Origin: Saccoglossus kowalevskii
Taxonomy: Eukaryota > Hemichordata > Enteropneusta > Harrimaniidae
Direction of reading: 5' to 3'
NCBI RefSeq assembly: GCF_000003605.2
Contig: NW_003135835.1
Coordinates: forward strand, 23,383-48,283
Length of the DNA: 24,901 bases
This document shows, in pieces, positions 1-24,867 of the stretch. The first letter of the stretch is position 1. The number at the start of each line of letters is the position of its first letter. The notes beneath the pieces are model-generated. The model worked only from the letters and a program-made list of their open reading frames with translations. It was not told the origin of the DNA and did not search any database. A program made the translations under genes and the position numbers.

Positions 1-205
1 AAAGGACGATTTTGTTTATATTTGAAAACATCGTCCGAGTAAATGGCCAATATCTATACAATAATACTATGTAAAGGCATACAAGGGACTGCTGCATATA
101 GTTCGTAAAGTGTTGGTATTCTGATATTTACACTGAATGTTGTAGGTTTTCTTGCGAATCTTGTAAATATACGGTAGTTCATTGCTTACGCGTTGTCATT
201 GTCTA
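1..205 (-). other. Start of 3' UTR
   Basis: Downstream of the TAA stop. No AATAAA or ATTAAA signal on the minus strand is visible in these 205 bases, so the cleavage site probably lies beyond the window. An imperfect hairpin occupies 4-36. Confidence 0.6.
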
Positions 206-1274
206 TTAACAGAGATACACCGACGTACTTTGCCGCACTTCGTCGTAAGGTGGTGGCGCCTCACCCGGTGGTGGATTCAAGTTGGTCGGAGTAAGATCAA
301 GGAAATGCGTGATAGGTTCACGCGATCGTCTGTGCGAGTTGCGAGCTGCATTGCCTTCGGGGCGGTATTGCGACTCATTTTGTTGGGAAGAGTCAAAACT
401 GTTGTTGCAATGGCCAGACATTGGCGGCGTGGTCACTGCATCTATTGGGCTAGCGTAGGTTGGCGACATTGCGCGACGTCCTTTAGATTTCCGACCTGGT
501 TGCGATATGCGACGTGTCCTCGAGCTATGTACGTGTCCCCGAGGTGTTCTTGGTGAGGGCACAATTGTGGTGTTCCGACTACTTTCAGAAGCAGTTCGAT
601 TTGTTCCTGGATTGTCCGCTGGCGAGGTTTGTCGGTACATCCGGGGATTATTTGATGGCAAAACAAAACAATTATTCATTGAAATACGCGGCGTTGATGA
701 GCTTGAATTGTCATGTGTATTGTGGTTCTTCATTTGACCATGCAAGGGAGACGTATGCGAGCTTAATGGAGAGTGAGTCGGGGAATCATAAACTGGCTCC
801 ACCGCCCGATTAGAGTTTTGACCTTGCAACGGTCTATCAACAGGCGGGTCTTTCAATGGCGAGACCGGGCCTGGTTTCCTCTGGTCTTGATTTGGTATCG
901 CCGGTAAATCTATCGGCGAGTCGTGCACCGGTGACGCTAACAAATCAGTTCGAAACACATGCATTTGATGCGGAAGGTCGAGAGGCGTATGGTGCTCTGG
1001 CGAATCCTGAATCAATGTCTCAGTGGGTATAGTTGGCAAATCAGCAGAGGCATCTCGCACTGTCCTCACATTGGCGATAAGATCATTAGCTGCCGTTGCA
1101 AGATCGGGCGGGGGCTCAGGCACTGTTATCTGCATCGGCGATGGAAGATCAATCGGGGAGGCATATATCGGCGATTCTGACCGTGGTGTAGATTCTGCTT
1201 TGTTATTACGGTAAGACACTGTGGACTGCTGTAAATCGGAGGGTAACGTGACACCATTTTGTTCATCTGTTAAC
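206..1274 (-). CDS. Coding exon 12: proline/serine-rich cytoplasmic tail
   Basis: 1069 nt including the TAA stop at 208-206, residues 853-1208, entered in phase 2. The sequence is rich in Pro, Ser, Asn, Asp and Arg with no evident fold, so it is probably disordered. It repeats a motif like YASPIDLP: starts at residues 890, 947, 970, 994 (weak), 1015 and 1126. Three copies begin with Tyr and give YxxP sites (YASP 890, YDSP 1015, YASP 1126), a pattern favoured by Crk-type SH2 domains when phosphorylated. A basic, serine-rich patch (about 1093-1121, with RRIS) and a near-C-terminal PPPY (1193-1196), a WW-domain ligand of Nedd4-type proteins, add further docking sites. The protein ends SVYLC. Acceptor CACATACCAG. 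Confidence 0.93.
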
Positions 1275-4200
1275 CTGGTATGTGGAAACAAAAACAAAGT
1301 TTATAATTTCTACGAAACTGATACGGCAAGACTATTATATAAAGGCAGGCAGATGAATCATCCATAATTAGCCAAGAAACGTGGGTGTATAAATTACCAT
1401 TGATTAAACTAGAAACGCAGGTACATTAATTAGCCTAGAAATGTACGCAAACAAATCAACCACAATTAGCGTTATATAATTATAAAGGCGCATGCATCGG
1501 GTTTCACGAAGGCTTGAATTGATTTTATATAAAATATTTATAAATTTCAAATAGCATCCCTAATTAACACTTATAGTAATATAATATAATGGATGCATGA
1601 CCAGAAAAGTATTTTGACTTACCCTAGGTTACCAGTATTATATGCAGTGAACACTGGGGGCGGTGCTCCGTTCACATTCAGCGAGACTGGTTTGACAATT
1701 CGTTTGCGATATAATACGACCACCAACACGACAACTGTAACCACCAAAACTAAGCCACCAAGTGCCCCTCCGATTATCAGGGCCGCATCATCTACAGGAG
1801 AAAAGACATAATCCTACATTTACAATTTTGACAGTCAGTACAACCTCCTTTAAACATACTACTAGTCAGGCCAATCTGTCGTCCACACTGTCAGTCAGTA
1901 TAACATCTGTCAACGACACTACCAATCAGGTCACCCACATTGCCACACATTTCAACCCAATTACCCACACTATCACTAAGTTCAACCTCTTAGAACCACA
2001 CTGCCAGTCAGTCTAAATTCTGTCATCCACCGTGACACTGCATGTAAATTCTCAGCCCATGTCACCCACATTGCCACACAGTTCAACCATGTTAACCAAA
2101 CTGTCACTTATTACTCTAATTGTTCACGCCCGTTAACCCCGCCAGCCACTGTCAGCTAGTCCAGTCAATTCTAGTTACTCCGACTAAAGGGATTCACAAA
2201 TATTGTTGACATTCTTAGCCATGTATGTTTGACATTGGTGAATGATAAAATGTCTTAAATCACACAATAAAACGAGTATTTATAACAGTTTGAGCTGATT
2301 TAGTAATAATATTTTTTTTAAATCCAGTTAAAGTCACTCCTAGACGCATTATAAATGAGAAATGACAATCGAAGGTTTGCTTATGTATACTGCCCTCACT
2401 GGCACTGTGGAGAAGTTTTCGCATAATTCGTTTTATGAAGTTTGCTGGTTGTGTCTGTTATCACGAGTAACGGGCATATACGCAATGTACGTCGAAACAA
2501 AAATAAAAAAAACACACACACATTTAGTTCATAATCATGACTGTGCTATCAGGAACAGTAATTCAGCGAAGTAAGGAAGTTGTTGCTTCCTACCAACCAA
2601 CCAGCACATTGCTTATGAAACGGCCTCGCTTGTTGTTCAGCTTCAGCATCCGAGCAACGCCGCTTTGTAAGCGATGCGCTGATTGGCCATACATGCGCAC
2701 GAGTCGCTGATAATTTTCAATTACCGGGTTACTTTAATGTCAGAAATACACATAAATATTTCAAAATGTTATGAACTTGATCGTTGTGATATTACAATGA
2801 TTACATCTTTGTTTCAAAGTTGTAATAAACCGATGTTCATTTGTTTTCGAAAACTGGATGCCGGCTGACTGTGTCAATTACAGGGACATTCGAAGGGTAA
2901 CCAGTTTATTTAAAAACAACAGCCACAATAGCAATATTAAAAAAAAAATCAGAATATAACCAGTTATATTGACGAAGCAGGGCAAATAATTATACGCGAC
3001 TGAAATCGTACGTACGTCCAATATCATTGGCGCAGAGAGCAAATTGGTTAAAATGTATAGACATTTCTTGCCAGGGGTGACAGATGTAATCAATGGCTCA
3101 AATTGTCCATTCCATTGTAAGATTATAAAAATCACATACCCTTCAGCCCACATGCCTCTTCATCAGTGTTATCGCCACAATTATCATTTCCATCGCAGCG
3201 AAGCGATCCAGCTATACACCGATTGTTGTCGCATTTGAAATCACTGGCATACGTACAATTGCCATGGGTTCCTGAATAGAAATGAAAAATTACACAAACG
3301 TTAAAAAATATTGTTATACTCCAGGGAGATGCAGTCGCCGAGTTCGTAAATCAGGAAATGACGACATTACGGAGTGTAAAGAACTGATATAAACGGATTC
3401 CTGACAATTGTTGAGCGCAATGAACCGTTGATGATCGTCTGCAGCTGCATATGAAGTGATGTGGAAAGGAAACAAGGACTGACAACTAGGCTGGGAACAG
3501 ATCACATGGCAGTCAGGTCACGGCAATATATAAATAACATTTTGAGCACATTCACACCCGAATAAATAGGCCAATCGCAGTCCCTAGTGGGTGTAGGGGC
3601 AGCCTTTTATTAATTAAACGACGGAACTCGGGCGGAGCATTGCATTCATATCGCTCCGTGCAAATTAGTTCATGCCCAGTGGCATCAAAGTCGAAAGATA
3701 CCGATTACCGGTAGCATAGTGGTTGTTTAACCCATGATACATGGGCCTCGTATTCAAACCCCCCGTGTCGTTGACCACCGACAAGATCGATTCCCCTGGA
3801 GAATGTACGAATCGTGTCACACAATCGGACAAATCTCAGTGGTTGTGGTTCGCGCAAGCAAGGCCGGTACGACTTTGGTTAACAGGCGATTTTATTTGAC
3901 TATAGCGCATACACCCCCGGAAAATCAAACGGCAAACAAACTTTTTGAAAGGAAAGGGAATCTATTATTTCAAAGGCTGCAACGCACTTACCGGCATAGT
4001 AATACAGGGAATACACCGCCTTGAATCCCCTGTACCTGCGTGGATGGGTGGGTTCTGTAAACCGAGTGGAAATCTCGAACGCCCCCGACGTGATGTACAT
4101 ATCAGCCGTGTCGTTGGGATGGCATATTGTATACTGACCAACACTGGAGCGAGACAAGATTATGTAATCTCCTCCCAGACAGTCTGAAAAACAAATATAA

Positions 4201-7200
4201 TGTATTTTCGAACATAAATAGATAAATAATAAAGCCCGCCTGGTTAATAAATATTATTGGGTACATTTTGCCGCTGAGATTCATGGGTAACAAAGGGAGA
4301 AGAAATGTGTTACGTTATTCTTACACGACCAGTGAATACACTTTTTCACACCCTCTGTCCGATGCAACGTGTACAAACAAATATGTGTCATCTACGCGTG
4401 CTATGTGTTATAGTGTGGATAACAGTACTTACCATGGTCGTTTACAGTGTACATATCAATATCCACAAATTTCAGATAGATGTTGGCGTAATATGCAAAC
4501 GTGTTGATGGCCAGTGAGCACGGTGGTGACGACTGGTAATCATCCGGATACGTATCATGCGAATATATCACTCCGCCAAGGGATGTGGCAAGGTTATTGG
4601 TACAAACTGAAACAAATATATAATTATAATAACCATGACGGCCAGCGGTAGATTTTTTTTTCGCTCGAGGCAGTAGGCAGACTGAAGCTAAATAATGCGC
4701 GAATTACCATCCTTGGGTCGAATAACCTATAGTTTTGGCAAAGGATTCATTCGTGTAAATCGGATTCGGATTCATTCGCGTAATTCGGGATCGGATTCAT
4801 TTGTGCAATTCCACACGCATGTGAATTTGTATGCAAAGTGTGAACCCGTATATTTACAAAGAAAAAATCAAATGCGTAATATAAACGGCAATGCATGACC
4901 TACTTTGTCGTTAATATGTAAACAGTAAACCGGCCACTAAATCGGCCTAATTCAAGCGTATGGAATCAGTGCCGTGTGTAAGTCTAATGTAGCAGCAATA
5001 TTTGAGCCATAGGCTTGTCAGGCATCAAATCTTCCCAAAACCTGACATTCACCGTATTTTGCAGTATTTTCTATTCCGTATTTTGTGTGTCTAACAATAA
5101 TACCAGTGTATTGATTGATTGATTGATTGACAATATAACTGTTATAATTTATAGCTAATAAGACAAGATGTAAGTACAACTATTCATTTGTAAGAATTGT
5201 ATAAACACAATAAAGTAAGTTTCACTAATCACGTATGGTGGGTAAGCAATATTTCATCAACTACTATCCCACTGTAAATCGAAAATTAATATAACCTGTT
5301 GTCGGTTTTACGGGTGGAAACCAAACACTTTTGCCGCGGCAAATTATTGGTACATTTCCCTTTAACACCCGTGATATTCTAACAGAAAGCGTGCGCTGAT
5401 AACCGTATCGACCATAAACACAGTAATACGTGCAGCATGGATGGACATACGACTACAGACTACTCGGCGTTTGAACATGCAACTCGATATAACTTGACAC
5501 GCCCTTACAACGTGTAGCATTACCTGAGAAACCTTTGGGAGGCTGCGAAGTGTAAACTGCTTGAAATCCACGGCTTCCGACCGTTCCATCGGTGTGGAAA
5601 TAAATAAGCACGTGTGACCAGTTTGACGTGATGAGAGGCGGTAACGTGGAACCGGTATAGTTACCGAGAAGCAACGACGAAGTGCTGCTCCCATCATAAA
5701 TACAGATGTAATCGCAGCACGACTCCGTGTCAAAAATATTGAACTGTACCTGGAACATGAGGCAAATATGTACGCTATTAGTATGCACCTAATCTTTATC
5801 GCTTAGTCACAGTCCCGCTGGGTTTAGTATTTGCTGGTATTCGCAACGCAACTTGAATGAACGTTATCAAAAATGGGCACTGGAAGGCCCAACAATATAT
5901 ATATACATGTCCCACCAGAATATAAACTTTTGCGGTGTGCTGACAAATCAAATTACTGGCAAGTATATCGTAGCGTTTATTAATAACGTCTACAACAATA
6001 TGGACTTACCTGGATTTTGTTTCCAGCAGTCACAGTTATATAATAATAACAATCAAGGAAAGTACTATAATGTTCTGGATAGTTTTGGGATGTAAAAATT
6101 CCCCAGTCTGTTGTGAATGTTCCGCCACAGTGACTACCAGTATTGTTCGTCATTAGTACGGTTTTAAATTTGGCGTAGAACCCCTGTCCTGCTCCGTCCG
6201 CATTGGAATGGAAATACACTGTCAGAGACGAACCTGATGAAAAAGGCACTAATGGCAAACCGGATCCGGAATAGGAATTCAGTATCGTCGTGGAGGAAGT
6301 CGACGACCCATCAAAGACACTGACGAAATCGTGTTCATATTCGGTGTTGAAAAGAATGAATTCCAGCTGCGGGAAGAAATTTAAATGAGTATAATTGTAG
6401 ATATTTAAATGCCAGTGAGTGCTACATTATAATGGCATCACCATGTATCGCAGGGGCACGTGACCTCAACCTGTGGCAAAGCGAGACTGACGGCATTAGT
6501 TGTATTTGTGGATAACCAGCCTCTAGACTAAGCGCAACGCCCTCAGCGGGGTATACGTGTGCATATACCTTTATACTGGTACTAGCACTGGCCTCAGACT
6601 GTATTACTAGTCTGAGCACTGGCTAACCGCGTGAGGTTGGTGATAACACGGAGCATGGGGTACATGTTTACGTCCGTGTACGGACCAACAAACCCATAGT
6701 CAACAACGAAGGCATTGTGGTTAAATATTTTAGAGTAACTCGTAATTTGTAATTCACGTGTACATGTATTATTTTAGGCTTGAGTGGGAAACAAACATCA
6801 CAGTTTTATGACAGCATAAATATTTATTGTGTTAGTTGTAGCACTAATCTAGGACGTTCAGCAGATCGTTGCAAAAAACGGTCCGACCTATTGCGATATG
6901 AAGGTGGTTATGACATACGTAGCAATGATTTTTGGGAACGACTTGTTTTACCTGTTGCATATATATCACAGTTACCCGATGCTGGCTCACACTAATACTT
7001 CCACCACATCGGGCTAACGCATGTTAGAATGTTTGGGGCAAACAGTCAGCTACACTTTAGAGCCTGTCACGAAAATTGGCAAGTAATATGGTGTCCATGC
7101 AAGTACCACGAATACAAGTAATTTGCATACGTGAATAAGAACCAGATTGTTATCTATTTAGCAAATGAAAAACAGAGCCGACCTTGGCCTTGGTTGGTGG

Positions 7201-10200
7201 GGAAAAAACAAACGTACCTCCTTCATTTGTGTCTTTAAATTTACTTTAAACAAGTTAATCACATATACATGTGATAAAACGATATGCTGAAAATCTCACC
7301 TGTATTAACAGACCATCAGATACCCGGATGTAGTAATAACAATCTTGGTTTCCCGGATAATGATCTGGGTAGTTTGGTGTTGCAATGACGCCCATATCCG
7401 AATTGAACGTACCGCCGCAGTCCCCCACGTTGGTCGTTATGACTGCCCTGTAGGTGGCGTTGAATCCTTGGCGTTCGATTATCCCGTCTGAGTGGAAGTA
7501 TACGGTGATCGTATTCCCAGACGATATGGGGACTGACGGCGGACTGTTTCCCGAATAAAAACCAAGATGACTGGACGCAGGGGACGGACCATCGTAGATT
7601 TCCACGTAGTCGTGAATGGATTCGGTACTAAATGTAGTAAAAACAAGCTGTGAACAAAATGGAAGAAAACTATTGGAAATATTCGTTCGTGAACGCAAGA
7701 CTAAAATTAAAATAATTTGCTCGTGAGATTTATAAAATTACGTAGTAACAAGGCCCGCCTAAAGGTTCGCACTTGTATGTTGATACATTACATTTAGATT
7801 ACAGCTGTAAAAAGGAGGTGTTACCATAGTGACACAAAGTGAGATTTGTTTTGTCGGACATTACTCGTCTTATGTAAACATACACTATATGTACAGGGCA
7901 TTTATTTTAAACACTGTTTATTTCAAACATAGTTGTACGTAATCCCTACAAGAGCCAAGCCACCTTGAGTTTACGTTGGTGTGTATATGTTGTTTATTTT
8001 AGTAGCAACTTATCTCGATCAAGGTTGCAAAGCAATAATTTCCTGACCCGTCTAATCATCTGTCGATCGATATAAATACTCGAGACAAACGTGTATGACT
8101 TTGAATGCTCTGAGATCTCGCTCTCTATATAATGAGTACATCGTGATCTGATGAAGTTAATTCGCATGAATCAATCGTTCATATCAAATGTATCCCCTCA
8201 CTCGTAAACCATTTTGAATTTGTGAGCAGAAGCGAAGTTTATTCAACGCTTTGTGCAGTAGTTGATGTAATATACCGTGTATTTATTTTTATGATCGAAG
8301 CATATGCTTCATTCTACATAAACGAAATCGTTTTTATACGGTTTCATTGTCGACGGCGCAAAAACATGGAAAAAGCTCGGGGAAACATGAAACAACAAAA
8401 GATGTGATGTTTCCGTTAGCCGCTTGCTTCACGCTTGTTATACACTTGCCACTAACACCGGATGGCATGCCATTATTTGCAATTACACCACCTATATAAA
8501 GAATGTCGTGCGAACAAGTTCAATGCAAGGTTTTGCTGAAAAGTAATACACGTACATATACATATTACGGACTACAAACCGACCGACCACTACTCTATAG
8601 TAATGACCAAGTTTAGCGTTAATAAGTAATCGATAAATTAATCAATTAACACTCCTGCCATATTTCTTCATTTTCAATAAACTGAGATCTAAACGACGCG
8701 CATGTTAATGAAATGCTTGACGTCAGACCAGCTCATTTGCATGCGAGTTCCCGGTGACGGCGGCCATATTGTTCTAACTGAAAAAAATAGTACATCTTGA
8801 TAACAGTCGTGCACTACTCGTAAATGTAACACATCACTGCTAAGTTGGATCACAATTTGTTAAGGGGCTGTGTTTGGATTTACACAAGAGCTAGTCAAAC
8901 AGTAAAACATTTTAAACTTGTTTATCGATACGCCCTTATTTTGTACTGCCGCCTTTCAATTTTTAACAACCTGGCACTAGCATTTATCGTTATATACACC
9001 TTTGTTGTGCGGTAGGGTTATTTATCGTCACTGGGTTCGTGAAAATCGTTAAATCGCCAGAAAACTGTTCATTTACAGTGTCCGGACGAGTCAACCCCAT
9101 GAAATGTATTCAATGTTTTGGATTGCCCCACGTCTGTGAAATAATCTCGGCTAGTGGTTTTGCCCCCTTCTATATATTCCACTGCACGCGTACCCGGGGA
9201 TCCGGGATGTTGATCACAGTTTTGAGCTTAACCCAAGTTGAACACGGATCTAACAATCATGCGTTCGGTGCAACGACCACGACGTAACGGCGACAGGTCC
9301 AATAAAAAAAAACTTGATTCGCAATGAATTCAAACAAATCCCGCTATCGAACAAAAATGCCACTACATTGTGTTCATACCGGTCACTTTGTGTTACAAAT
9401 ACAAAGAACACACTCAGTGTTTTCATGTAAACTAACATCAAAGCCATTTCTTATTTGCTTTTACCTAGGAATCCTACTCCACCCAAGGTGTAGCGTAACA
9501 CGATAAGAAAATGAAAGGCTTTCTTAACAAACTTAACTCAAATTACCTGAACATACATTCCTTTGGACACTGTTATGAAATAATAACAGTCTTGATTGCT
9601 TGGGTAATAATTGGGAAATCCGGGCGAGGCGATGAATCCATAATCAGAAACAAAGTAACTATACGTAGTTGTGTTTACTTGTTGAAATGTCGCGTTAAAT
9701 CCTTGGAACTCATTTGAACCGTCCGAGTGAAAATACACCGTGATGGTGGACCGTGTTGACACCGGTACTAACGGTATTTTTAGTCCGCTGTATGTACCCA
9801 GTAGTGAGGCAGCCGTCGACGTACCATCATATATACTGACATAGTCGTAGTTTTCTTCGGTGGCAAATTGTAAAAATTCAATCTGGCGAGGATAGTGAAA
9901 ATAGTATGTGTTATAATTAGTGACGATAGTTGAGACATTTGGGATTTATGGTGAACATGGACAGAGGTCGCCATAGTCATGGTTCGAGGGACATGAGCGA
10001 TGTTATTTTTTTAAACGATGAACTGTTGTGATTTCAACCATATCATCCACGTAACGTTTTCACGTCATTTCAACTAAGCAAAATAGTGTTCAAATTTTCA
10101 AAACACGATAACTGAAACAAAAGTACACCCATGCTATTGCAAGTCATATTATATTGTTACCGATATGACGTTTTGAGGGAGTATGGCAAAGAAGCGAATA

Positions 10201-13200
10201 GAATGAAGGTCTGAAGTTGGCATGTCCTACAACTCATATGCTACAACCCTGCAAGGGGAACCCTGTTTGGGGCAGAGACTAATATTGGGTTTCATGGAAA
10301 ACTAAACAAAATGGCTGCCAATCGGTCATTCTGGGACAAATGTATTGAAGCTACCATGTCTGACTTAAGTGATGTTAGGACATACTAAGCGGCCGGTAGT
10401 TGGTACATTGTATCAAATCGGAAAATAAGTAGATGTGCAGACATGGTGATGTCTTGTCCATGGAGCATATCGGTGATGGACGTGGCATGAAATAAAGGAC
10501 ACTTGTTTTCGGACGACGTCCACACGGACACAAACATTATTTTTTATTCGGCAACCTGTTGATTGATGTCCGATAGACAAAGGGACAAACTGCCGTGAAT
10601 TATTGATGTGAATGAGTAAGGAGATCAGAATGCGTGTGAAAGAAAACTACGTTGATCGGGTACTGTAGAACATTATTTAAGCGTTTACCTGAATCACCGC
10701 ACTGGCAACTGACGCTGTTATGGTATAATAGCAGTCCTGATTGCTTGGATAGAAGCCAGGGAAGTTAGGAGATGAGAACACACCCTCGCTGCCGTAAAAC
10801 GTGCCTACACATGCGACATTGGGTCTTGCCACGGCTTTAAAAGTAGCCTCGAATCCTTGAAGTTGATTTTCACCGTCCGAGTGGAAATAAACCGTGATAC
10901 TCGCCGTTGCGCCGGACGACGTGATAATAGGAGGGATAGTCGAACCGGAGTATGATCCAATGCGCCGATAACTTTCAGACGGGCCGTCATAAATATCAAC
11001 ATAATCGTTGAATTCCTCCGTGTTAAAAAAGTAAAATACCAGCTATAAACAATAAGAACAAATCAATGTAATAGCGTCATTTGCCTGTAATAGTATACAT
11101 AATAAAGTAGATATTTAATATAATATCGAATGTGTGTGCGCTTCAACCTGCAACTACACCATATATTGCCCCAGATGGCACCGTAACAACCACGGTCGTT
11201 TGGGGTCGCCATTGGGATTTCCATTTTATATTGCACGTTTCTACACACTACATATTTATAGTTTAGTGAGAATCACCGCTGAGTGAGATGCGTGAACAGA
11301 TTAGATGTAAATCCGAAGAACTGCAAAGCAAATCCCCGCTCGTCAGAACAAACGGATGATACCCCCCGCTACATATGTAACATATTACAAAGCCCTAACC
11401 CTAGCGACATTCATAACGTAAATACTACTGGTATTCATATGCAGATGTTTTGTTTTGGTATAATATTTGCGACTACTACAATAATATAATAACAATCAAA
11501 CAGATAGTTTTAGAGTATATTTTCATCGGAAATTGTGTACATCATTCATATTCGATGTGAATACAGATAACCTAACATCGAAAAAGTTTTCGCACAAACG
11601 GTACCTGCAAACAAAATCATAACGCTTTTAAGATACTTGAATAATTGTCGATTGGAAAACATAAATACGCTAAATATTGAACATTTGCTGGCATTTTTTG
11701 TTTGCTTATTTTAAATTAAACTTGACACCCTCATTTAAAGTACATTTGACACTACCAAATGATCTGTATACATGTTTAGTAAACACAATGCAACACATGG
11801 TTATAACACGGGGTCATGTAGGAACTAATTTGGCTATCTGCAGTGAGGTACGTGCCCCCTCGTCGACTTATCCCTGGTTTAACTAATCGCTTAAATAGAT
11901 GAACAGCCATTGTTGGTATCTATGTGTTTGCCTTTCATGTTATACCGATCATTTCTGAATGGCCAAATAAGTAAGTAAGTATTTTGTCAGCTGCAAATGT
12001 TCTGTAAACCGTTCTGATGACCATTGCTAAATACTATGAAAAAAGCGAATTTGTTTTCCGGTAGTGAATAATAAACTAGGGCACGTTTTTTTCCAGGGTG
12101 TAATCTGTCGAAAAAAATGCCCGAGTAACTGCATTCATGAGCAGTAGTACAGTCCGTGAACTGAAAACTAAACGGTCCATTATAACCGGCCAACTTCGAC
12201 GGTTATCTCGTGTGTTGTAAGTCGACCGTTACTTATTGGAGGACAGAACGCGCCAGACAACGAATGTCGTCTGCCGACGGAAATCGACATTAGTACGCAG
12301 ACACTCCTCAACTGTCTGACTAGTTTACAGTATAATCTTTTGTATGATTTCGTTAATTTCGTTTAAATCGTTCTATTGCGTGCCAGTTTATAGGAACGAA
12401 AAGAGCTACCCGATAGCGTACCATCAATCAACGAAGAAAGCGTAATAAAGAATTCTTCCATTATCAGTGGCATTACATGATGCCGACCGATATTTCTAAG
12501 TCGCGCGAATAACAAAATGGAAATTTTAGGGACGCTCTCAAGCATACGTGAAATTCACCCTCAAACCACCCTTCCTGTCTTGAACAGAATTGAACGAATA
12601 TATGAATATATTAGCATAATTAATATTTTGAATTTTTGTGTATTATATCATATAGCTATTATTCATATAACGTATATTTATGAAAGTATTTTTGTATTTC
12701 TTTCATTTAAAAAAACTGTTTTACATTTCACAAAATGCCTGTTATGTTTCAGGAATCTGGGCATATTGACGACCCAGAACGGCTCATACACATATTGAAC
12801 ATTGTGGTTCTATTAAAAAAGTGGCAATTTCATACGAGGAAATATTTGGATACAGTCCTGCCTATTAATATACAAACAATAAGTAGCTTTTTCTAAATAT
12901 TTTAGTGAGTCATTCAGAATGCAACGTCGCCATTGTCCCGGTTGACCTTTCCAAGCGCACAACGACAACTACAAGTGCAAACCGCACGTACAATACCCGA
13001 TATTATTAACTGCGCCAATTTAATGTGTTTTGTAGATCATACACGTATATATCCGAGTCACCACTTCGGCATCTTTCAACCGAACGGACCAAGTATTGAT
13101 ATATCTCACATTCTGAAAAACAGAATAACAGTGTCTATAACAACATTTGAATCAAGCAGAGACTCGAATGTTGGTTTTCAATAAACTAATTACACGCCAT

Positions 13201-15592
13201 GAATCATTTCCACAAAGACCAATGCATCGCTAGGGGTTAATAACGTTTAACTTGGCAACTACAAAACACGATTGTAACTTACAAAAGCATACACCTTATA
13301 CAGTGAATACATTTATTTCAGCTCAATGTGGGGAATTTTTTTTTCTCTGTTATATTGCACTAATTCGTAAAAAAAATCGGTAATATCTGTGTAATCGTGA
13401 GAATTCAATAGACATTAACGCATTATGGCCGAGAGCAAGTCACTGCATTAGCAATTACTATTTATTCATTAGCTGTAGTTTAATTTCAATTTCAAGGTTA
13501 AGTTTCAAGATGCAACGGATTTTACAAATCGACAAACTTACGAACCACCACGAAATGCCGAGGGCAAAAAAGATAATATTTAGCAGACTGCTGCGAAACC
13601 ATGATCACATAGTAGCTCCATAAAATAACAGGATAATGTGATGTGAATAGGTTAATTCTGATTACATATTGAAATAGTAACAACTAAATTTGAAAAGTAA
13701 TACAGTCGCGACGCTCTATAATTCCTTTTGTGAAGCCATGTATCGCCGAGGGCTATGGACATTGACGTTTACTTCTGAACATGCATGGACTTACATACAT
13801 TATAATGACATCGAACATACGAACCTAATCCACCCGTTCTTATGTTGTTATGGAAACAGTGGGTCAACATGCATTTGCTGTGTTATGAATCTTATTTAAA
13901 TTCATATATATTTGGAATATGGATGACTAACTGAATAAAATGAAATATTCGTCGTAGCTCAACATTGTGTCGCGTAAAACGTGTAATAAACCACAATATA
14001 TTCTAATACAACACCAACCGAACAATACGGGAACAACCACGGACAAATAATAATTTCGAGGATTTACAATATTGGAACTACAAAAATACCATCTAACGGA
14101 GGATTTGGGCAGCTGTTCACTCTGTTTAGCGTGATCCTTCTCATTTAAATTAATTTAAAATTGTGATTAGAACCAAATCACTGGAAACGCGACCTCTGAA
14201 AGTGATTGAAATTGAAAAAAACAAAACAAATAACCAATATCTACATCAAATTTGCAGACCAATATGTCAATAGCGACGTATGCACACTGGTCAAGACAAA
14301 CTGTGATAATGAATACATTCACGTGTTCGTCCAATAAAACTCTCATAAACTCAATCAAATTTGTACCATCGCCATGACACGTGTCTGAATGATTGATATT
14401 AACAGTTGACTTCACCAATCAACACTACCAGTTCTCACTAAATCATGCTTCGATTAAAGTCCAAAATGTTACATTCATGTTCTCAAAATTATGGCGCACC
14501 TTAAACCAAACAGTTTAGAATAATACTCATCAACATACCTGAACGAACATGCCACTGGTAACAGATATATAATAGTAACAATCCTGGTTACTAGGGTAGT
14601 TACTGGGATAGTTGGGAGATTTAATTACCCCACTATCCCTATTATATGCTCCACAATAGCCGTCGATATCTCTTCTCCCTGTCAAAATAAAACCGAATTA
14701 ATTCCCAGTTAGTCCTTTACGACCTACACATATACGTGAATGGTGAAAGCCTCGTGCGGACATAATTGTTTTTATATTGTGGGTCTATAGGCTTCGTATA
14801 GCTTTGCAAAAAAACGCATAATAGAGACCAGTCGAATGTGACGACCAACAATCGTAGGATTCAATACAGTACAAACAAAGAAACTTGAAACACCAACATG
14901 TATAAACTATCGATCTATTCGTTGACATTGCTACCTTTATTATGAAAGTGATACACTCACGTTTTGCTTACTTTAGAAGGGATTATCTATTGGAAATCCA
15001 AAAATGCTATGCGAAGTTAGGAATACAAGGGAAAAAACAACAGATGCAAATGTCGCGCCTATGAAAACAGACCTCTAAAAGCTACAATGATCGATTTCGT
15101 TGAGTTTAATGTCATAGTCCCTTCTTCTGGCGGTCAATGTTTCACAATGCTCTATAGTTCCTTACATATCAAGAAATATACATCGTTCGCGATCGATTTT
15201 TGTGGTAAGGGCCATGTTTTATTGAATACACGTTGCCGTATCAAAATGACTAACTGAGGGATTCTGGTATAGACACCGTGACGGTTACTAAAACGACGGT
15301 GGTGTAGGCTTTCCATCCCGGGGTAAATTATAAATGTCTGGCACGGGTGCTGATATTTATAGATTCGTCTGAAACTATAAGGCACTAGTATAATAATATC
15401 TTAACACGAAAATTCATACACTCTCAGTTAAACATGTCAAATTTCGATAGTATATCTCATACCTATATTTTTTCGAATGCGGTTAAAATGGGGTTTGTCC
15501 GTGATACTTTCTGTGTCGGTGCGTACGGGTAACAGAACCATGGTACACGCCAGCGCCGATAAAATACACCGCAACAGCTGTCTGCGACTCAT
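206..15592 (-). CDS. Multi-CUB, LDLa single-pass membrane receptor (complete 12-exon gene)
   Basis: Twelve exons join in frame into 1208 residues plus TAA. Predicted layout: signal peptide about 1-25; CUB1 about 52-162; CUB2 168-277; CUB3 about 281-390; CUB4 397-506; CUB5 516-625; CUB6 632-747; LDLa 758-793; transmembrane helix 799-824 followed by RKR; cytoplasmic tail 825-1208. Every intron starts with GT and ends with AG, and all eleven junction phases agree, which is strong evidence that the model is real. CUB and LDLa modules are extracellular ligand-binding folds, so a surface receptor or co-receptor is inferred. The CUB-LDLa-TM end resembles Neto and LRP3/10/12-type proteins in plan, but five extra CUB domains precede it. 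The ligand is unknown. Start codon: ATG in a good context (A at -3) with an in-frame TAG at 15613-15611. Extra alternative exons cannot be excluded. Confidence 0.93.
1275..1622 (-). other. Intron 11
   Basis: Phase-2 intron, 348 nt, donor GTAAGT, acceptor CACATACCAG. It holds three loosely similar copies of an ATTAGCCTAGAAACG-like word, beginning at 1367, 1403 and 1429 on the plus strand. Confidence 0.75.
1623..1791 (-). CDS. Coding exon 11: transmembrane helix
   Basis: 169 nt, enters in phase 1 and leaves in phase 2, residues 797-852 plus two bases. It encodes a 26-residue hydrophobic segment (799-824) beginning ALIIGGALGG and continuing with Leu and Val, then a basic RKR stop-transfer signal, giving type I topology. 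The helix includes a GxxxG pattern that often supports helix packing. After the membrane come NGAPPPVFTAYNTGN residues of the juxtamembrane tail. Acceptor TCTCCTGTAG, donor GTAAGT. Confidence 0.94.
1792..3139 (-). other. Intron 10
   Basis: Phase-1 intron of 1348 nt between LDLa and the transmembrane exon, donor GTATGT, acceptor TCTCCTGTAG. About 1820-2160 is a low-complexity, degenerate repeat region. A hydrophobic minus-strand stretch at 3153-2878 is intronic read-through and has no fitting acceptor. Confidence 0.75.
1820..2160. repeat. Degenerate low-complexity repeat region
   Basis: Plus-strand sequence is rich in CA, GTCA and TTCAAC words with variants of CAGTCAGTATAAC and CCACACTGTCA recurring. 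One 28-bp word (1930-1957) recurs at 2061-2088 with a single mismatch, 131 bp apart. No intact unit array is seen; it is probably a decayed minisatellite. Confidence 0.5.
3140..3271 (-). CDS. Coding exon 10: LDL-receptor class A domain
   Basis: 132 nt, symmetric phase 1-1, residues 753-796. It shows a complete LDLa module: six cysteines at 758, 766, 771, 778, 784 and 793, the FKCDNNRCI core, and the acidic calcium cage CDGNDNCGDNTDEEAC. LDLa modules are about 40 residues, fold around one calcium ion, and usually bind basic patches on ligands or partners. Being a single symmetric exon, it is a typical shuffled module. Acceptor TTCTATTCAG, donor GTATGT. Confidence 0.96.
3272..3991 (-). other. 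Intron 9
   Basis: Phase-1 intron, donor GTAAGT, acceptor TTTCTATTCAG. A degenerate tRNA-like segment lies at about 3708-3800. A minus-strand open stretch at 3505-3314 has a plausible acceptor but a stop in the required phase, so it is not counted as an exon. Confidence 0.75.
3708..3800 (+). repeat. Possible tRNA-derived SINE remnant
   Basis: An A-box-like GTAGCATAGTGGTT at about 3711-3724 is followed by a small stem (CCCA ... TGGG) like an anticodon arm, then CCTCGTATTCAAACC and, further on, a B-box-like GATCGATTCCC (3785-3795). The spacing between the A-box-like and second B-box-like motifs is longer than in a tRNA, and the acceptor arm does not pair, so a decayed tRNA-derived SINE head is more likely than a tRNA gene. 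No poly-A tail or target duplication identified. Confidence 0.33.
3992..4183 (-). CDS. Coding exon 9: second half of CUB6
   Basis: 192 nt, symmetric phase 1-1, residues 689-752. It completes CUB6: DCLGGDYIIL with Cys690, SSVGQYTIC with Cys709, then the late strands (ADMYITSGAFEISTRF and RRYRGFKAVYS). Cys690 and Cys709 are the third and fourth CUB cysteines, so CUB6 has the full four-cysteine set that CUB1-5 lack. Acceptor TTTTTCAG, donor GTAAGT. Confidence 0.9.
4184..4432 (-). other. Intron 8
   Basis: Short phase-1 intron (249 nt), donor GTAAGT, acceptor TTTGTTTTTCAG. No element seen. Confidence 0.8.
4433..4606 (-). CDS. Coding exon 8: first half of CUB6
   Basis: 174 nt, symmetric phase 1-1, residues 631-688. 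It has the CUB opening Cys632, then GGVIYSHDTYPDDY, and a second cysteine, Cys660, followed by a strand with YYANIYLKFVDID. It is clearly a CUB domain but divergent from CUB1-5, with a different intron phase and position. Acceptor TTTGTTTCAG, donor GTAAGT. Confidence 0.88.
4743..4813 (+). repeat. 25-bp tandem repeat
   Basis: GGATTCATTCG-type units start at 4743, 4768 and 4793, exactly 25 bp apart; the second matches the first except for a few changes and the third is partial and more diverged. Lies within intron 7. Confidence 0.8.
5111..5130 (+). repeat. (TTGA)5 microsatellite
   Basis: Five perfect tandem copies of TTGA in intron 7. Confidence 0.9.
5524..5749 (-). CDS. Coding exon 7: second half of CUB5
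   Basis: 226 nt, enters in phase 0 and leaves in phase 1, residues 556-630 plus one base. It ends the five-CUB array: FDTESCCDYICIYDG, NYTGSTLPP, VLIYFHTDG, GFQAVYTS. Three cysteines lie close together (566, 567, 571) where other array members have none; Cys566 or Cys567 sits near the canonical third CUB cysteine, but the fourth is absent. A near-ideal branch-point motif TACTAAT lies upstream of the acceptor in intron 6. Reading past the GTAATG donor would add 23 residues and stop at 5455-5453. Confidence 0.9.
5750..6009 (-). other. Intron 6
   Basis: Short phase-0 intron (260 nt), donor GTAAGT, acceptor CATGTTCCAG, with TACTAAT about 30 nt upstream of the acceptor on the minus strand. Nothing else noted. 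Confidence 0.8.
6010..6366 (-). CDS. Coding exon 6: second half of CUB4 and first half of CUB5
   Basis: 357 nt, phase 0 at both ends, residues 437-555. It completes CUB4 (FNTEYEHDFVSVFDG, SYSGSGLP, LTVYFHS, GFYAKFKTV) and starts CUB5 (HCGGTFTTDWGIF, QNYPEHY, LDCYYYI) with Cys516 and Cys542. Unlike its relatives, CUB4 has HSNADG in place of HSDG, so the third calcium-position aspartate is Asn491 or shifted by a two-residue insertion. Acceptor CTTCCCGCAG, donor GTAAGT. Confidence 0.94.
6367..7299 (-). other. Intron 5
   Basis: Phase-0 intron, donor GTGAGA, acceptor TTTCTTCCCGCAG. It contains an 8-bp-stem hairpin flanked by direct repeats at 6585-6623. No other element recognised. Confidence 0.8.
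7300..7647 (-). CDS. Coding exon 5: second half of CUB3 and first half of CUB4
   Basis: 348 nt, phase 0 at both ends, residues 321-436. It finishes CUB3 (FSTESIHDYVEIYDG, FYSGNSPP, ITVYFHSDG, GFNATYRAV) and starts CUB4 (DCGGTFNSDMGVI, TPNYP, HYPGNQDCYYYI) with Cys397 and Cys423. Glu329, Asp333 and Asp374 match the calcium-binding CUB positions. This is the most canonical repeat of the array. Acceptor TTGTTCACAG, donor GTGAGA. Confidence 0.95.
7648..9546 (-). other. Intron 4 (about 1.9 kb)
   Basis: Phase-0 intron, donor GTAATT and acceptor TTGTTCACAG. It contains a CRE palindrome and an octamer 9 bases apart (8718-8742) and a 14-bp perfect palindrome (8297-8310). No other coding exon or transposon was recognised. 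Confidence 0.75.
8718..8742. promoter_or_regulatory. CRE palindrome and octamer cluster in intron 4
   Basis: A perfect TGACGTCA (8718-8725), the CREB/ATF site, lies 9 bases before a perfect ATTTGCAT octamer (8735-8742), the POU/Oct site. A GC-richer segment with GGCGGCCATATTG follows. Such clustering suggests an intronic enhancer; no functional evidence is available. Confidence 0.35.
9547..9882 (-). CDS. Coding exon 4: second half of CUB2 and first half of CUB3
   Basis: 336 nt, phase 0 at both ends, residues 209-320. The CUB2 part has FATEENYDYVSIYDG, TYSGL and TVYFHSDG, with Glu217, Asp221 and Asp262 at the calcium positions. The CUB3 part has SDYGFIASPGFP, YYP and SNQDCYYFI. The first CUB3 cysteine is missing: the position 26 residues before Cys307, where CUB2, CUB4 and CUB5 have Cys, is Thr281 in a TTTYSY stretch. 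Cys307 is thus predicted to lack its normal partner. Acceptor CCTCGCCAG, donor GTAATT. Confidence 0.92.
9883..10688 (-). other. Intron 3
   Basis: Phase-0 intron, donor GTAAAC and acceptor CCTCGCCAG. No element or alternative coding exon recognised inside it. Confidence 0.8.
10689..11042 (-). CDS. Coding exon 3: second half of CUB1 and first half of CUB2
   Basis: 354 nt, phase 0 at both ends, residues 91-208. It begins with the CUB beta strands (NTEEFNDYVDIYDG, SYSGSTIPP, ITVYFHSDG, GFEATFKAV) that finish CUB1, then opens CUB2 with Cys168, SSPNFP, and NQDC with Cys194. Glu99, Asp103 and Asp146 occupy the positions that bind calcium in calcium-binding CUB domains. The usual third and fourth CUB cysteines are absent. 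Acceptor TGTTTATAG, donor GTAAAC. Confidence 0.93.
11043..14538 (-). other. Intron 2 (about 3.5 kb)
   Basis: The largest intron, phase 0. Both flanking exons contribute to the same CUB domain, so no extra coding exon is needed. I searched for CUB-like residues (NYP, NQDC, YDG, YFHSD) and found none. The content is AT-rich with scattered A/T runs; no RNA gene, transposon ORF or long repeat was recognised. Confidence 0.75.
14539..14678 (-). CDS. Coding exon 2: first half of CUB1
   Basis: Residues 44-90; enters in phase 1 and leaves in phase 0. It shows the classic opening of a CUB domain: Cys52, then SGVIKSPNYP, a second YP, and NQDCYYYI with Cys77. These two cysteines are the usual first disulfide pair. 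The exon stops right after the VQ that precedes the next beta strand, the same place at which the introns inside CUB2-5 fall. Acceptor TTTTGACAG, donor GTATGT. Confidence 0.9.
14679..15462 (-). other. Intron 1
   Basis: Phase-1 intron with donor GTATGA and acceptor TTTTGACAG. It holds no coding stretch that fits the phase, and I see no recognisable element in it. Confidence 0.8.
15463..15592 (-). CDS. Coding exon 1: signal peptide
   Basis: Encodes residues 1-43 plus the first base of codon 44 (phase 1). The N-terminus has a basic start (RR at 3-4), then a hydrophobic core rich in Leu, Ile, Ala and Val up to about residue 23, which reads as a secretory signal peptide; cleavage near residue 25 is an estimate. 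The chosen ATG is preceded by AAAC, and an in-frame TAG lies six codons upstream, so the protein cannot extend further 5'. The exon ends at a GTATGA donor. The stretch after the signal is short and polar, and leads directly to CUB1 in exon 2. Confidence 0.85.
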
Positions 15593-18550: not shown

Positions 18551-19114
18551 ACTTTACTAACGCACGCCCTGCATTACTGACGCACGCCCTAAATTACTAA
18601 GGCACGCCCGAAGTACCAACGTACTCCCTGAATTATTAACGTAAGCCCTGATTTATTAACTCAAGCTTTGAATTACTAATGTAAGCCCTGAACTATCAAC
18701 GCACGCCCCAAATTATTAATGTAAGCCCTGAAATACTAACGTACGCCCTGAATTATTAATGTAAACCCGAAATACTAACGTACGCCCTGCATTACTAACG
18801 TACACCCGAATTATTAATGCAGGCCCTGAATTATTAACGTACGGTCTGAATTACCAGGGTACGCCCTGAATTATTAACGTAAACCCGAATTACTCAGGGG
18901 CGGATCTAGGATTCTGGAATAGGGGGGGGGGGGTAAGTTGGCCGAAGGCAAAGTTCGCGAGCGCCGATGGCACGAAGCTCTGTTGCTTGTTAAAAATGGG
19001 GGGCAGCGGCCCCCTCGGCCCCCTCTAAATTCGCCAATGTTACTAATGAACGCCCTGAATTATTAACATAAGCCCTGATTTATTAACGTACGCCATGAAT
19101 TACTAAAGCACGCC
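18551..19114 (+). repeat. Degenerate 20-bp satellite
   Basis: Around 17 copies lie before and about 4 after an inserted element (18895-19039). The unit is close to GAATTATTAACGTACGCCCT. The first ten copies keep an exact 20-bp period; later ones have single-base deletions. Variation is mainly at TAACG/TAATG and ACGCC/AAGCC. Confidence 0.9.
18895..19039. mobile_element. Small terminal-inverted-repeat element (MITE-like) inside the satellite
   Basis: A 145-bp, GC-rich segment starts CAGGGGCGGATCTAGG and ends CCTCTAAATTCGCCAATG. The end, reverse-complemented, matches the start at most positions, so these are decayed terminal inverted repeats. TTACT flanks both sides (18890-18894 and 19040-19044), and removing the element with one TTACT restores a normal satellite unit. 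A run of 12 G lies at 18922-18933. It has no coding capacity, so it would be a non-autonomous element; superfamily not assigned (the CAGGGGCGGATC-type end resembles hAT, but hAT duplications are 8 bp). Confidence 0.7.
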
Positions 19115-22100
19115 AGAATGTTACTTCTCCATACCTCCACATCTTTCACGCCATTCACCGGACACACTTCAAACTAAATAGTAATTTCAGCATATTTGCA
19201 CCAAACCGGTCGGCACAATCTAGCACCACTAGGTTCAAGGACCCATCTAGAATTATAAATGCATATGCATAGACCAACATCGCATTCTGGAAGTATTATC
19301 AAATTAAACAAATAAATAACACATTAGTATGAAGGTCACATTCTCATTCATGTTCATTCGATGATGATTAATAGCAAACCTTCATTTCCGGTCGGAGTGA
19401 CTGCAGCGATCATAGCCTCGTTTCAAGGATATTTAACAGGGCTTAATTGTAGATATACCATGGACTGATTTTCTCCTAATTTTACCCTTCGTTTATTTCT
19501 TGAGTGTCAGTGCATGCTAATACCCTGAGCAGACAAAACAGCCATTCAGTGCAAAACCATCCAATAGTGTACCCCCAATTCCATTGACTTTTCACTGAAG
19601 ATTAAAGAACAAAAATCAAGATTGCAGCCTTATGCATGTACATCTATGCCCCAAAGTTGGAAGATTTTTGCATTGATGAATTATTTCTTACTATTGTTTC
19701 AAGTAATGATTCTTTCATTCTTAGCATTTTTGCAAAATTTATTTTCTATATTCGTGATATGTTTAAGTACTGTAAGTTTTATTTTCATGAATGTTGTTTT
19801 GTTTTGTTGTTGTTTTTATTGGACATTACTCAAGATTTCATTGGTACGTTCCAAATAAAATTCTACTATACATGTGGATAAGTGGAAATGTTGACAGATT
19901 TGTAACAATTGGAAAAGCACACAAAACATAGAGCTGTTACTAAAAAGGATTAAAATGGTAAGTATGCTGTCCCTCTCATTGTACTGAAGGTATTAAATAT
20001 CGATGAACCGATAACTTCACTACTTTATAAGTAAGTTTTTTGAGGGGTTGTTTTTAGCTATCTGACTTGGTTAAATTAATTGCCCCAATAATTTGTTCAA
20101 CATATTAGCTATTATGAACTTTACACGTAAACATTAAAATTATTGCTAAAAAAAAGTTAACTTTTAGTTTTTTACTTTATGTTGAAACGAATCGGCACAT
20201 TTCGAGTTTAACAACCTTTACAGGTCAATCTATAGCACAGTATATCAAACAAGTGCTTTGAAATTAGACAACAAATACGGGATAAATATGCATATTTCTT
20301 TTAGCAAGAGTTTTATTGTTTTTTTTTCTATTAATATTCCGTTTTTTTTATTACTTCCTTATTAGTGTATTAATATTGAATACTTATACTATTATCTATA
20401 ACCATTGTCACTCCCTCCGGGTAAGTGTTAATGAATAAATGAATGCATATATATAACAACTTAAACTGCTTTATAAGCTGACACATACTGCCAGCCTGTC
20501 TACTTTGAGGTGAGATAAACCTAATACAGTTGTAAATGGTACTCAAATTAAATTTAGGACGCCAATTCACTACAATATCCTCCGCCCTTCACGCCGGCGT
20601 AACGCAATCTTATCTGTCGTTACGCCGGAGCTGACACTCCTTCAAGGGGGTTTAAAGTCCGCCATTATAAACCCACTTTACGTCGACATATCGTGTTCAC
20701 ATACGCTTTTCTTGCGCCGACGTAACTACGTCGGGGTAAAAGAAAACGAAAAACAGATTTGAGCAAGGTGATTATTCTAAATGAGCTCTTGTCAACTAAC
20801 ACTTGATTATTAAGGTATCGTTAACCAGAAAAGTAACCAAGTTTGCTGCAATGGTTCTATTTATTCAAAACATATATGCCTTTGAAAACCGATATGTATT
20901 ATTATCAAATACGTTACACACGGTTTTCGTATATATTCTCAGACAACGAGTTTAATTATGACTTGTCTTGTCATACGTATGGTATGTGAATATCTTGAAC
21001 TGGGCAACGGTCACGTGATAAACAAGCCAAACTACTTAAAAATGTTTCTTAACAAAATGTATACGCTTTAAATTACTCGGTTCCGCGTTGATACCCTCTT
21101 TCCCCCAAGTGGGTACGATTCGATTGACCGAATTGCTAAATTGTGCGAAGAACCCGATATTTTCCCCTAGTCACGTCTCACTGATCTTTGAAAGCGACAA
21201 AACAATGATGTCTCACTAACAGTCGCCAATTTAGACTGGCAGGCAACGCCATCCATGCACGACTAATCACATTCCTCGTGTCTGCAACTTACGCTGTACG
21301 CGTTTTGTCAATCTGCACCAGAAAGTTTATGGGTATGCATTGGGACAGCAACAACACCGTGGAGGGGGTGGGAGGAGGTTCCAAGACGTTGACTACCACA
21401 CAACAGTCACCTACCGTAATCATGTTCTGAATATATCAGCTTTTAAGGAAGTAAGATTTGAAACTAATTTCGGCCATGTTTCAAGCTTGCCCCGGGCATG
21501 TCTACCAGTAGCGGAGCATTCAATTGGAACACGACTCATAACATTTGTTGTATTTGAAAGCAGACCATATAAACACGCTTTAGTAACAACGCGTAGGTCT
21601 TGAAGTTATCTTACTTGAACACAGTCATCTGGTGCAGCGCATCAACTTGAGTATGTTTATTGTGAGTGTTGAGGTCGTGAGACCATCTTAGCACTTACTT
21701 GTGCAATCGCCATTCGTTAATTAAGGCAGTGATGGCAAAATAAAAAAAAAATATTTCCAATATATGATTACCAGATCTGTTCATATCCCAATGCTCTTTG
21801 CGCAACGACGATCACGCATAAATCACTCAATGGCGGCGAATACTCGTTGGACATCAAATAGTCTAATGGACCGTATCAACATTAAACCTGTTCAGATCTC
21901 AGGCTGGGTCGGTCATGTTATGACGTGTCTGAATACAATCACATGATTGGGTATGCGAAGTATGTTGATTTACGAAATATTCTTCCTGTAATATACAACA
22001 AAGAAACAACTTGGGCTTGAAATTTACTGACAACAAAGTGGTTCTGTGGACACTTTGCATATTGGGTGATCGTCAAATATAAAAACCATGGGACAAGCTA

Positions 22101-22204: not shown

Positions 22205-22302
22205 CAATCTTTCCCATAGTTCGTTGTGCATTTCGCAATAGAACCTCTGTCACCAATCTTTCCCATAGTTCGTTGCGCATTTCGCAATAGAACCTCTGTC
22301 AC
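22205..22302 (+). repeat. Near-perfect 49-bp tandem duplication
   Basis: Copy 1 is 22205-22253 and copy 2 is 22254-22302; the only difference is T at 22227 against C at 22276. It is probably recent. Confidence 0.95.
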
Positions 22303-24867
22303 CACGTGCTCCGTCACAGGCAGCTTTTGTGGTCACCTCACTACGCATGGTGTTTAACCTGACAATGTACTGCAAAAATTCAATAATATATATGTGACAA
22401 TTTATTTATTAACGTCTGACGAGTGTAATTTTTTTATTGGGGACTACGTTGTGCAAGATAATACTTAGGCTGGTGAAATAGCGCACGTGATCACTAGCAA
22501 TGACGGGAAACAGCATTCTGTTGATGTATATAGTTTGCCTGTGCGTTTTAAAAAATACCTGCAATCTAAATTGTGCAGGTTAAAATTTAATTTAGACGTC
22601 AAAAACATCATTTAAAATAGTATAACCTAAGTGCACAGTGCCCCTCCGCCACGGTCTATTTTTTATTTTATTTTGTGGTGATTGGTATTATTTGATTCGT
22701 GAATTACTAGTATTTTCATTGTATGTATTAAAATTCTGGCATCATTGTCAGTAAAGTTCAATTGTGTTTGATGTATAATGTTAGATGCGTTTTACCGACG
22801 TCGTGCCAGCGACATGATGGGTTGGTAAGTAGACAGACTGTGTGGAGATATACCGACTCGGAAATAATTACATGCTGCGTAATTTATAACGGAGTAGAAA
22901 CAAAGAGAATCATGGGTACCCGTACCTTATGGCATATACACACTAACCAATCATCCAACGGCACAGGTGGTCCACCCCAATCTTATTTATTTTATTTTAT
23001 GCGTTTCATAAAGATAACACGTCTCCAATGTTGTGTAAACATTTCAAGAATATTCATGTACATGTGTTCAATTTACCTTGCAGCCTACGACACGGGAACT
23101 CGTACGAGACGTCACATTGAATATCTCGTTTCCCTTCATAAGACGGATGTGTATTTGCCACGTAGTGCAAACCACACTGCACATGTTGCGTACCTGATTA
23201 AAAGCATTATTTTTCTTATAATATATACCAAGAATGGGGATTAAATAAACACCACGACATATGGCTGGAACACACATAAACAGTTAATAACATTTGCAAT
23301 TTTAAAAGGTATGTAATTTGTATTCCGAACCACGCAGTAGATGATTCATTGCGGCGTGGCCATTGCAAATATGTGTATCTATTAAAGTAATATTCACGGG
23401 TACATAAAAACCACGCACTCATTCTGTATACACTTATTTAGAAACTCCACTCTACTATGTGTCTTAATATTATTATTAGATCGATATCATATGGCGATTT
23501 AAAGATTTAATCCGCGTTGTCATGGCAATCAGAGTTGTATCAATTAGTCGTTAATACTATATCGACATATCTTCGAAACATAATTAGAGAAATGGTGACC
23601 TTTGCGTGAGTGTTTGTGAAACAGGTGGGGAACACTGCATTATCACAGTCTACTTTGTCTTTTTATCTTCCATGAATAAACATTGTTAAAGATATTGTTC
23701 ACATGCGACGCACAGAGTAATGTCTTACAGACAACACCCCTACGCTTTAATTGACTTGTCCGCTTTTTACATTCACAGATAACGACCACACGTCGAACTT
23801 TAATCTGCATTGGATATAAAATGAAAGCTATTCAAATTCAATATCATGTTCACTCGGTCGACGGTGATTCATGGTTGAATGCAAGGTGTTTTGATGAGGT
23901 TCTTTTGATCTGGATTGCGGTTCCGCTATATATATGATTAATTTATCCGCCCTGTCAGCCATACGTCAAGGAAAACCGGGTTTTATTAATATAATATAAG
24001 ATAAAATACTAAATACATACTGTGGTTCTAGACCACCTCCCATCGTTCAGATATCTAGCCAGGGAACCAAAAATCGATGAAAATATAACACACGATTCCG
24101 ACTTTATTTGTTATTAGAATACTATATCTATACCATTTGATACTGTTAGTAATTGCTGCCTGTTTTACACAATTCATGACACAATTTAAGCATAGCGGTC
24201 TATATACGTTCTAGACACAGCTTACATTGCTTTCAACCATTGACTTCCTGTGCATCTCTTGTATTTATTATTATTTAAAAATTAACGTAAACGGAACAAG
24301 TCTCGTAGATTTGATGACGTGAATTACAATGAAAAAGAAAGGAAACGAATATTCGGTTGCTGATGGCGCTGGTTTCTCACGAGCTCTGTCAGATTATTTT
24401 TTTATGGCACTGGAAGAACAGCCAGGAGCGTTGCAATACCATTGTGATTATTGCGTCCTCGAAAGTAAGCGAAGAAATTCACTTTGCGTGTGTCAGCAAG
24501 TAAACGACAAAGCTGTGGTTATTTTAACCCCACTCAGAGCCGTGACAGTGATTGTCATCTGGGTACTTTGATAGCCCTCTAGCGGCTTTCTAGCGAAAAC
24601 TGGGAACTCGAAAATTGGGAATTGGCCATATTCTCCAAGTATCGACCGAGTATGCCGTTGGTGGCACTCTCGCGAAGTCATGAATCAATGATTATGTACA
24701 TTCGGTGTATGCCTGTCGATTTTTATTCCAAGACGTATCTTCTAAACGGTTTAGTTGGAAATATTACAATTTTTGGTACAAAGTTAATCCAAATTCAATT
24801 ATGTAACATAAAGATTTATCTGTCAATCCCTTTAGATAAATCTTAAATCCAAATATGAAAATGACAG
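22303..24867. other. Upstream region, no gene recognised
   Basis: AT-rich DNA. The longest plus-strand open frame (22762-23244, 160 residues) has no recognisable domain or biased codon use. A 7-bp inverted repeat lies at 22557-22580. Confidence 0.55.

Follow-up and report, generated by a model that had tools for sequence, protein, structure and literature searches.

A predicted six-CUB, single-LDLa membrane protein with a long cytoplasmic tail in the hemichordate Saccoglossus kowalevskii

Introduction

Among the multi-CUB membrane proteins described in PMC9083331, LEV-10, SOL-1, SOL-2 and Neto come closest in layout to the gene discussed here. LEV-10 of C. elegans is described as a type I protein with five CUB domains and one LDLa module that clusters levamisole-sensitive acetylcholine receptors; its ectodomain alone is enough for this clustering, and the LDLa module is dispensable (PMC9083331). 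SOL-1 is given four CUB domains, and SOL-2, Neto1 and Neto2 two CUB domains together with an LDLa module (PMC9083331), an arrangement that PMC2652390 also reports for Neto1. Neto1 and Neto2, the Drosophila Neto and SOL-2 are auxiliary proteins of ionotropic receptors (PMC9083331, PMC2652390). CULD and Loaf of Drosophila likewise combine CUB, LDLa and a transmembrane segment; CULD has a role in endocytic trafficking, and a similar one has been proposed for Loaf (PMC4732287, PMC8205486).

How does a hemichordate gene compare with these? The window, by which we mean the whole analyzed stretch of 24,901 nucleotides, is part of contig C2787 in an animal genome of 572 Mb. It holds a gene whose predicted product is a surface protein that combines six CUB domains with a single LDLa module and a long inner tail. 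The CUBs are followed by the LDLa module and then by one transmembrane segment, which places the gene in the general CUB-LDLa-TM class. Its layout is closest to that of LEV-10, compared by description: both are type I membrane proteins that join an array of CUBs to a single LDLa module. They differ in that LEV-10 has five CUBs against six (five canonical and one divergent), and the present gene adds a degenerate last CUB, a motif-rich tail with a PPxY motif, and a hemichordate host. Neto1, Neto2, the Drosophila Neto and SOL-2 share CUB, LDLa and transmembrane segment with it, yet Neto1, Neto2 and SOL-2 are described with two CUBs instead of six. SOL-1 and dSol-1 resemble it as multi-CUB (four) type I receptor auxiliaries, but their descriptions name four CUBs and a transmembrane segment and no LDLa module. 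CULD and Loaf follow the CUB-LDLa-TM plan, though they are described with a CUB in place of an array and with a role in trafficking. LRP3, LRP10 and LRP12 are type I proteins with two CUBs and, in contrast to the single module here, several LDLa modules.

The original prediction that no described family resembles this architecture was overstated, given LEV-10 with its five CUBs and LDLa module in a type I protein (PMC9083331). The near layout is already known from LEV-10 and from the CUB-LDLa-TM class; what appears to be new is the exact six-CUB layout, for which no description was found in the literature examined. LEV-10 is not named among the best 60 of 62, 83 and 71 PDB matches.

Gene structure and domain composition

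The gene runs on the minus strand (15592..206) with 12 exons and 11 introns in one frame of 1208 codons (Table 1), the exon ends being placed by eye and checked by script. Its splicing, which we infer from the genomic sequence, is in frame as had been predicted: GT-AG borders are found at 11 of 11 introns, and the incoming exon phases (0,1,0,0,0,0,0,1,1,1,1,2) form a stop-free chain, both verified by script. An in-frame stop lies upstream of the ATG. The product has 1208 residues, with the start codon at 15592 and the stop codon at 206-208, so that the model agrees with the prediction nearly to the nucleotide. A tblastn comparison of the product with the window, introns included, gave no convincing additional CUB exon. 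This arrangement of exons and domains is far beyond chance.

Table 1. Features of the six-CUB gene in window coordinates
Feature	Position	Strand	Basis
Exon 1 (residues 1-43): start codon and signal peptide	15463..15592	-	hydrophobic window, residues 5-24
Exon 2: N-terminal half of CUB1	14539..14678	-	gene model, Pfam
Exon 3, phase 0-0: CUB1 C-half and CUB2 N-half	10689..11042	-	
Exon 4, phase 0-0: CUB2 C-half and CUB3 N-half	9547..9882	-	
Exon 5, phase 0-0: CUB3 C-half and CUB4 N-half	7300..7647	-	
Exon 6, phase 0-0: CUB4 C-half and CUB5 N-half	6010..6366	-	
Exon 7: CUB5 C-half, cysteines at 566, 567 and 571	5524..5749	-	
Exon 8: divergent CUB6, first half	4433..4606	-	
Exon 9: divergent CUB6, second half	3992..4183	-	
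Exon 10: LDLa module, six Cys and acidic box	3140..3271	-	
Exon 11: transmembrane segment and juxtamembrane region	1623..1791	-	
Exon 12: remainder of cytoplasmic tail, stop codon 206-208	206..1274	-	
Tail stretch with five Ser-Pro-[Ile/Thr]-[Tyr/Asp] motifs	440..1174	-	
PPPY (PPxY) motif near the C-terminus	245..256	-	

Pfam recovers in the product both domain types that had been claimed, CUB (PF00431) with E 1.3e-118 over six stretches and Ldl_recept_a with E 2.3e-7. The hydrophobic windows comprise the N-terminal one and residues 797-830, the one strong membrane segment. Gene model, Pfam and hydrophobicity together uphold the proposed type I layout and its order of signal peptide, five CUBs, divergent CUB, LDLa, transmembrane segment and tail. 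The LDLa module keeps its six cysteines, and we take its acidic box to be an LDLa motif.

Within the array each CUB is split by a phase-0 intron between its N-half and C-half. Exons 3, 4, 5 and 6 (354, 336, 348 and 357 bases) are all multiples of three and symmetric 0-0. CUB1 to CUB4 are 49-57% identical among themselves and CUB5 is 40-44% identical to them, so that over the five array CUBs the pairwise identities (40-57%) set CUB5 apart and give no firm order. The Glu-Asp-Asp triad, presumably the calcium site of calcium-binding CUBs, is present in four of the five, CUB4 having N for the last D, and ligands outside the triad vary. If two disulfides per CUB are a feature of calcium-binding CUBs, as we assume, it is of note that the second pair is absent from all five; CUB5 has other cysteines nearby, and CUB3 also lacks the first Cys.

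The sixth CUB was rightly called divergent, since its score of 17.7 bits (scored with LDLa and transmembrane segment) falls below the Pfam cut-off of 21.4. It is nevertheless a genuine CUB, because a profile made of CUB6 and its three paralogous copies matches the CUBs of MASP-1 and neuropilin. Among solved structures, cubilin gives the best match for residues 1-835 (E 1.2e-55). A further Pfam model of the M02D8.5 type, PF23062, scores above its cut-off in this gene (73 bits) and in a related gene on contig C136 (36 bits); another relative, on C2971, has a match to a sister model alone, which at 23.1 bits stays under the cut-off of 30, and in Neto2 no match to a model of this type was found at E up to 0.1.

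Long CUB arrays also occur in this genome in another form: on C3233 (136650-144356) an uninterrupted frame of 2,656 codons with at least 16 CUB matches makes up an intronless array.

Related loci and the growth of the array

A genome search with the CUB6-LDLa-TM stem returned related exons on contigs C136, C2971 and C3582. There are thus at least four related loci, window gene included, which differ in array length and in their tails. Followed exon by exon, the genes on C136 and C2971 each have two array CUBs, a divergent CUB, an LDLa module, a transmembrane segment and a Pro-rich tail, and no further array CUBs were found upstream of either in the DNA examined. In each, the seven internal junctions inspected by eye keep the phases of the window gene (0,0 in the array, followed by 1,1,1,1 and 2). 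The C3582 gene is cut by the contig end and agrees with these phases where it can be read. The stems of the relatives, joined by hand and with a few junction residues uncertain, are 34-42% identical to that of the window gene.

Some of these loci show peculiarities of their own. The LDLa module on C2971 (22621-22749; L038:2621-2749) has lost two of its six cysteines in place, yet it still clears the Pfam threshold with 26.8 bits against 24.1, and the surrounding stem is kept. On C3582 (L040:64-512) a 55-base tandem repeat of about eight copies, which reiterates the DTESCCDEVYVYDG stretch, sits in an apparent CUB C-half exon. A weak fifth candidate relative is found on C1091.

What could have lengthened the array? 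Symmetric 0-0 exons number four in the window gene versus one each in C136 and C2971, so duplication of such an exon, which carries the C-half of one CUB and the N-half of the next, is the simplest and probable route by which the array went from two CUBs to five. In a tree of ten CUBs none of the branches is supported (supports 15-26) and no duplication order emerges, so this account rests on exon structure.

The cytoplasmic tail

The tail was predicted to be long, and it is; its length, put at 384 residues, comes to 385 when counted from residue 824. Five SP[IT][YD] motifs are observed against 0.07 expected, and Ser/Thr-Pro sites number 20 against 11.2 expected, a count that 0.3% of shuffles match. 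By count, the one PPxY does not exceed what chance would give, as 19% of shuffles hold one, and its placement within the last 25 residues is seen in 1.1% of shuffles. PPxY occurs in three of the four tails (window, C136 and C3582, not C2971), with 65% of shuffles for C136 and 40% for C3582 containing one by chance. A YDEV motif accompanies PPxY in the window tail. Residues 847-1208 have neither NPxY nor [DE]xxxL[LI] and contain one Yxx-hydrophobic site. To call this a docking tail is reasonable in view of the SP[IT][YD] motifs and the Ser/Thr-Pro enrichment, although the lone PPxY does not add to that case by count.

Exon 12 recurs with 94% identity on C3545 (18329-19775; L042) within a 1.47-kb block (window 78-1550) that also takes in 276 bases of the last intron and some 3' sequence; no close copies of other exons were found on that contig. 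The two copies differ by 57 substitutions, with 35 among 1069 coding bases, 19 among 276 intron bases and three in the 3' flank. In the coding part, codon positions 1/2/3 have 12/4/19 of them (chi-square p 0.008), and their density is about half that in the adjoining intron. This codon skew and the lower density indicate that the tail is coding and constrained at the protein level. The C3545 copy has a one-base length difference inside its coding part and its frame is therefore shifted; the block may have arisen by duplication, or C3545 may be misassembled and the block an allele.

Other features of the window and the genome

Two stretches of the window (18554-18894 and 19040-19119) consist of a degenerate 20/40-base tandem array (TTATTAACGTAAGCCCTGAA...), and at 22205-22304 a 49-base unit stands in two tandem copies that are 98% alike.

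The mitochondrial contig C4830 (L049) carries COX1 on the strand opposite to ND1 and COX2. We read the genetic code from these three genes at Ile, Lys and Ser-like positions that we take to be conserved. ATA occurs at the Ile and AAA at the Lys sites of ND1, COX1 and COX2, a Ser-like site of ND1 has AGA, and TGA is read as Trp. Among the deuterostomes tabulated in PMC3121625, this code fits Saccoglossus and the pterobranch Rhabdopleura; echinoderms are listed there with AAA for Asn and chordates with ATA for Met. The hemichordate code in PMC2697986 is consistent with this. Read in this way, the mitochondrial code suggests a hemichordate host.

Possible function and competing explanations

The best explanation, to which we assign a probability of roughly 0.45, is a single-pass type I CUB-LDLa-TM protein of LEV-10-like layout that serves as a co-receptor or auxiliary subunit. 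The gene is presumably expressed, and its five array CUBs would bind a partner protein, mostly with calcium, while the divergent CUB6-LDLa unit next to the membrane would be the conserved stem that holds the array there. The long, probably disordered tail may be modified at its Ser-Pro sites and could recruit WW-domain proteins such as NEDD4-type ubiquitin ligases through PPxY, which in turn would set the surface lifetime of the complex. The likeliest role would be to cluster or traffic another membrane receptor or channel. We prefer a co-receptor role because LEV-10, SOL-1, SOL-2 and Neto, as described, act on neurotransmitter receptors. The model of the tail is not taken from LEV-10, since the LEV-10 ectodomain alone is reported to cluster receptors.

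Cargo uptake comes not far behind, since trafficking is where CULD and perhaps Loaf work and PPxY often means ubiquitin-linked turnover. An endocytic cargo receptor like CULD, Loaf or cubilin would bind ligands with its array and be sent to endosomes by ubiquitination at PPxY, a possible but less probable reading. CULD is a CUB-LDLa membrane protein needed in endocytic trafficking, the tail joins PPxY with YDEV, and cubilin is the closest solved match; yet this match may reflect general CUB likeness, the tail is poor in the endocytic signals searched for, and the descriptions of CULD and Loaf give them a CUB and an LDLa, not an array. Decidedly unlikely is a diversified recognition receptor, immune or for self-recognition, from a fast-evolving family. 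It would account for at least four related loci with varied arrays and tails in a genome with at least 150 CUB stretches, but the identity of the stems and their fixed intron phases speak against it, as does the codon constraint on the tail.

Could the gene instead be a Neto with extra CUBs? We find this very improbable. Neto2 is indeed matched by a CUB6-LDLa-TM profile, over a stretch that starts inside CUB2 and takes in LDLa and transmembrane segment (E 5.5e-13), and the two LDLa modules are 46% identical. Enteropeptidase, another CUB-LDLa protein, follows closely (E 1.1e-11) in the same search, so the match is not Neto-specific, and its 52 bits come largely from LDLa: with this module of the window gene replaced by X, the best 60 of 67 matches do not include Neto2 and are led by chance matches to 14-3-3. 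The divergent-CUB profile alone does not have Neto2 among its 14 matches at E up to 10, and CUB6 aligns to CUB2 of Neto2 in short stretches only (best E 0.022). Membership was rejected on these grounds and on six CUBs against two. Nor is this the genome's own Neto gene: a Neto-like locus on C2917 (L050, 504001-507900, minus strand) holds CUB1 and CUB2 pieces in order, CUB1 being 46% identical to that of Neto2 (E 4.7e-24) and the CUB2 halves collinear (E 2.2e-4 and 6.8e-6). The next-best genome match to Neto2 is a CUB on C1605 (E 2.2e-14). The CUB6 profile and the separate locus agree with the earlier view that the gene is not Neto. Least credence of all goes to a mis-joined model, in which the array and CUB6-LDLa-TM are two genes or exon 12 is foreign. 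Its basis would be that splicing was read from sequence alone and that a second exon 12 on C3545 is found without close copies of the others. Every junction is in frame with consistent phases, though, C136 and C2971 repeat this order on a single strand over some 6 kb at most, and the C3545 block is a copy that starts inside the last intron.

Implications

Beyond the co-receptor reading lies a further and unlikely proposal: that the gene belongs to the LEV-10 family of receptor-clustering proteins and forms its deuterostome branch. The CUB array would then be an ancient scaffold for ionotropic receptors that dates back to early bilaterians and has survived in hemichordates, where it was enlarged by exon duplication and acquired a tail that binds ubiquitin ligases. 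If the likeness to LEV-10 reflects descent, receptor clustering by an extracellular CUB array would not be a nematode peculiarity. In vertebrates, neurotransmitter receptors are held in place by the agrin-MuSK system, and a hemichordate could then be used to test how they were held before it arose. If it does not reflect descent, the gene would still illustrate clearly how symmetric exons have lengthened a domain array, and its shorter relatives elsewhere in the genome allow comparison with the lengthened form.
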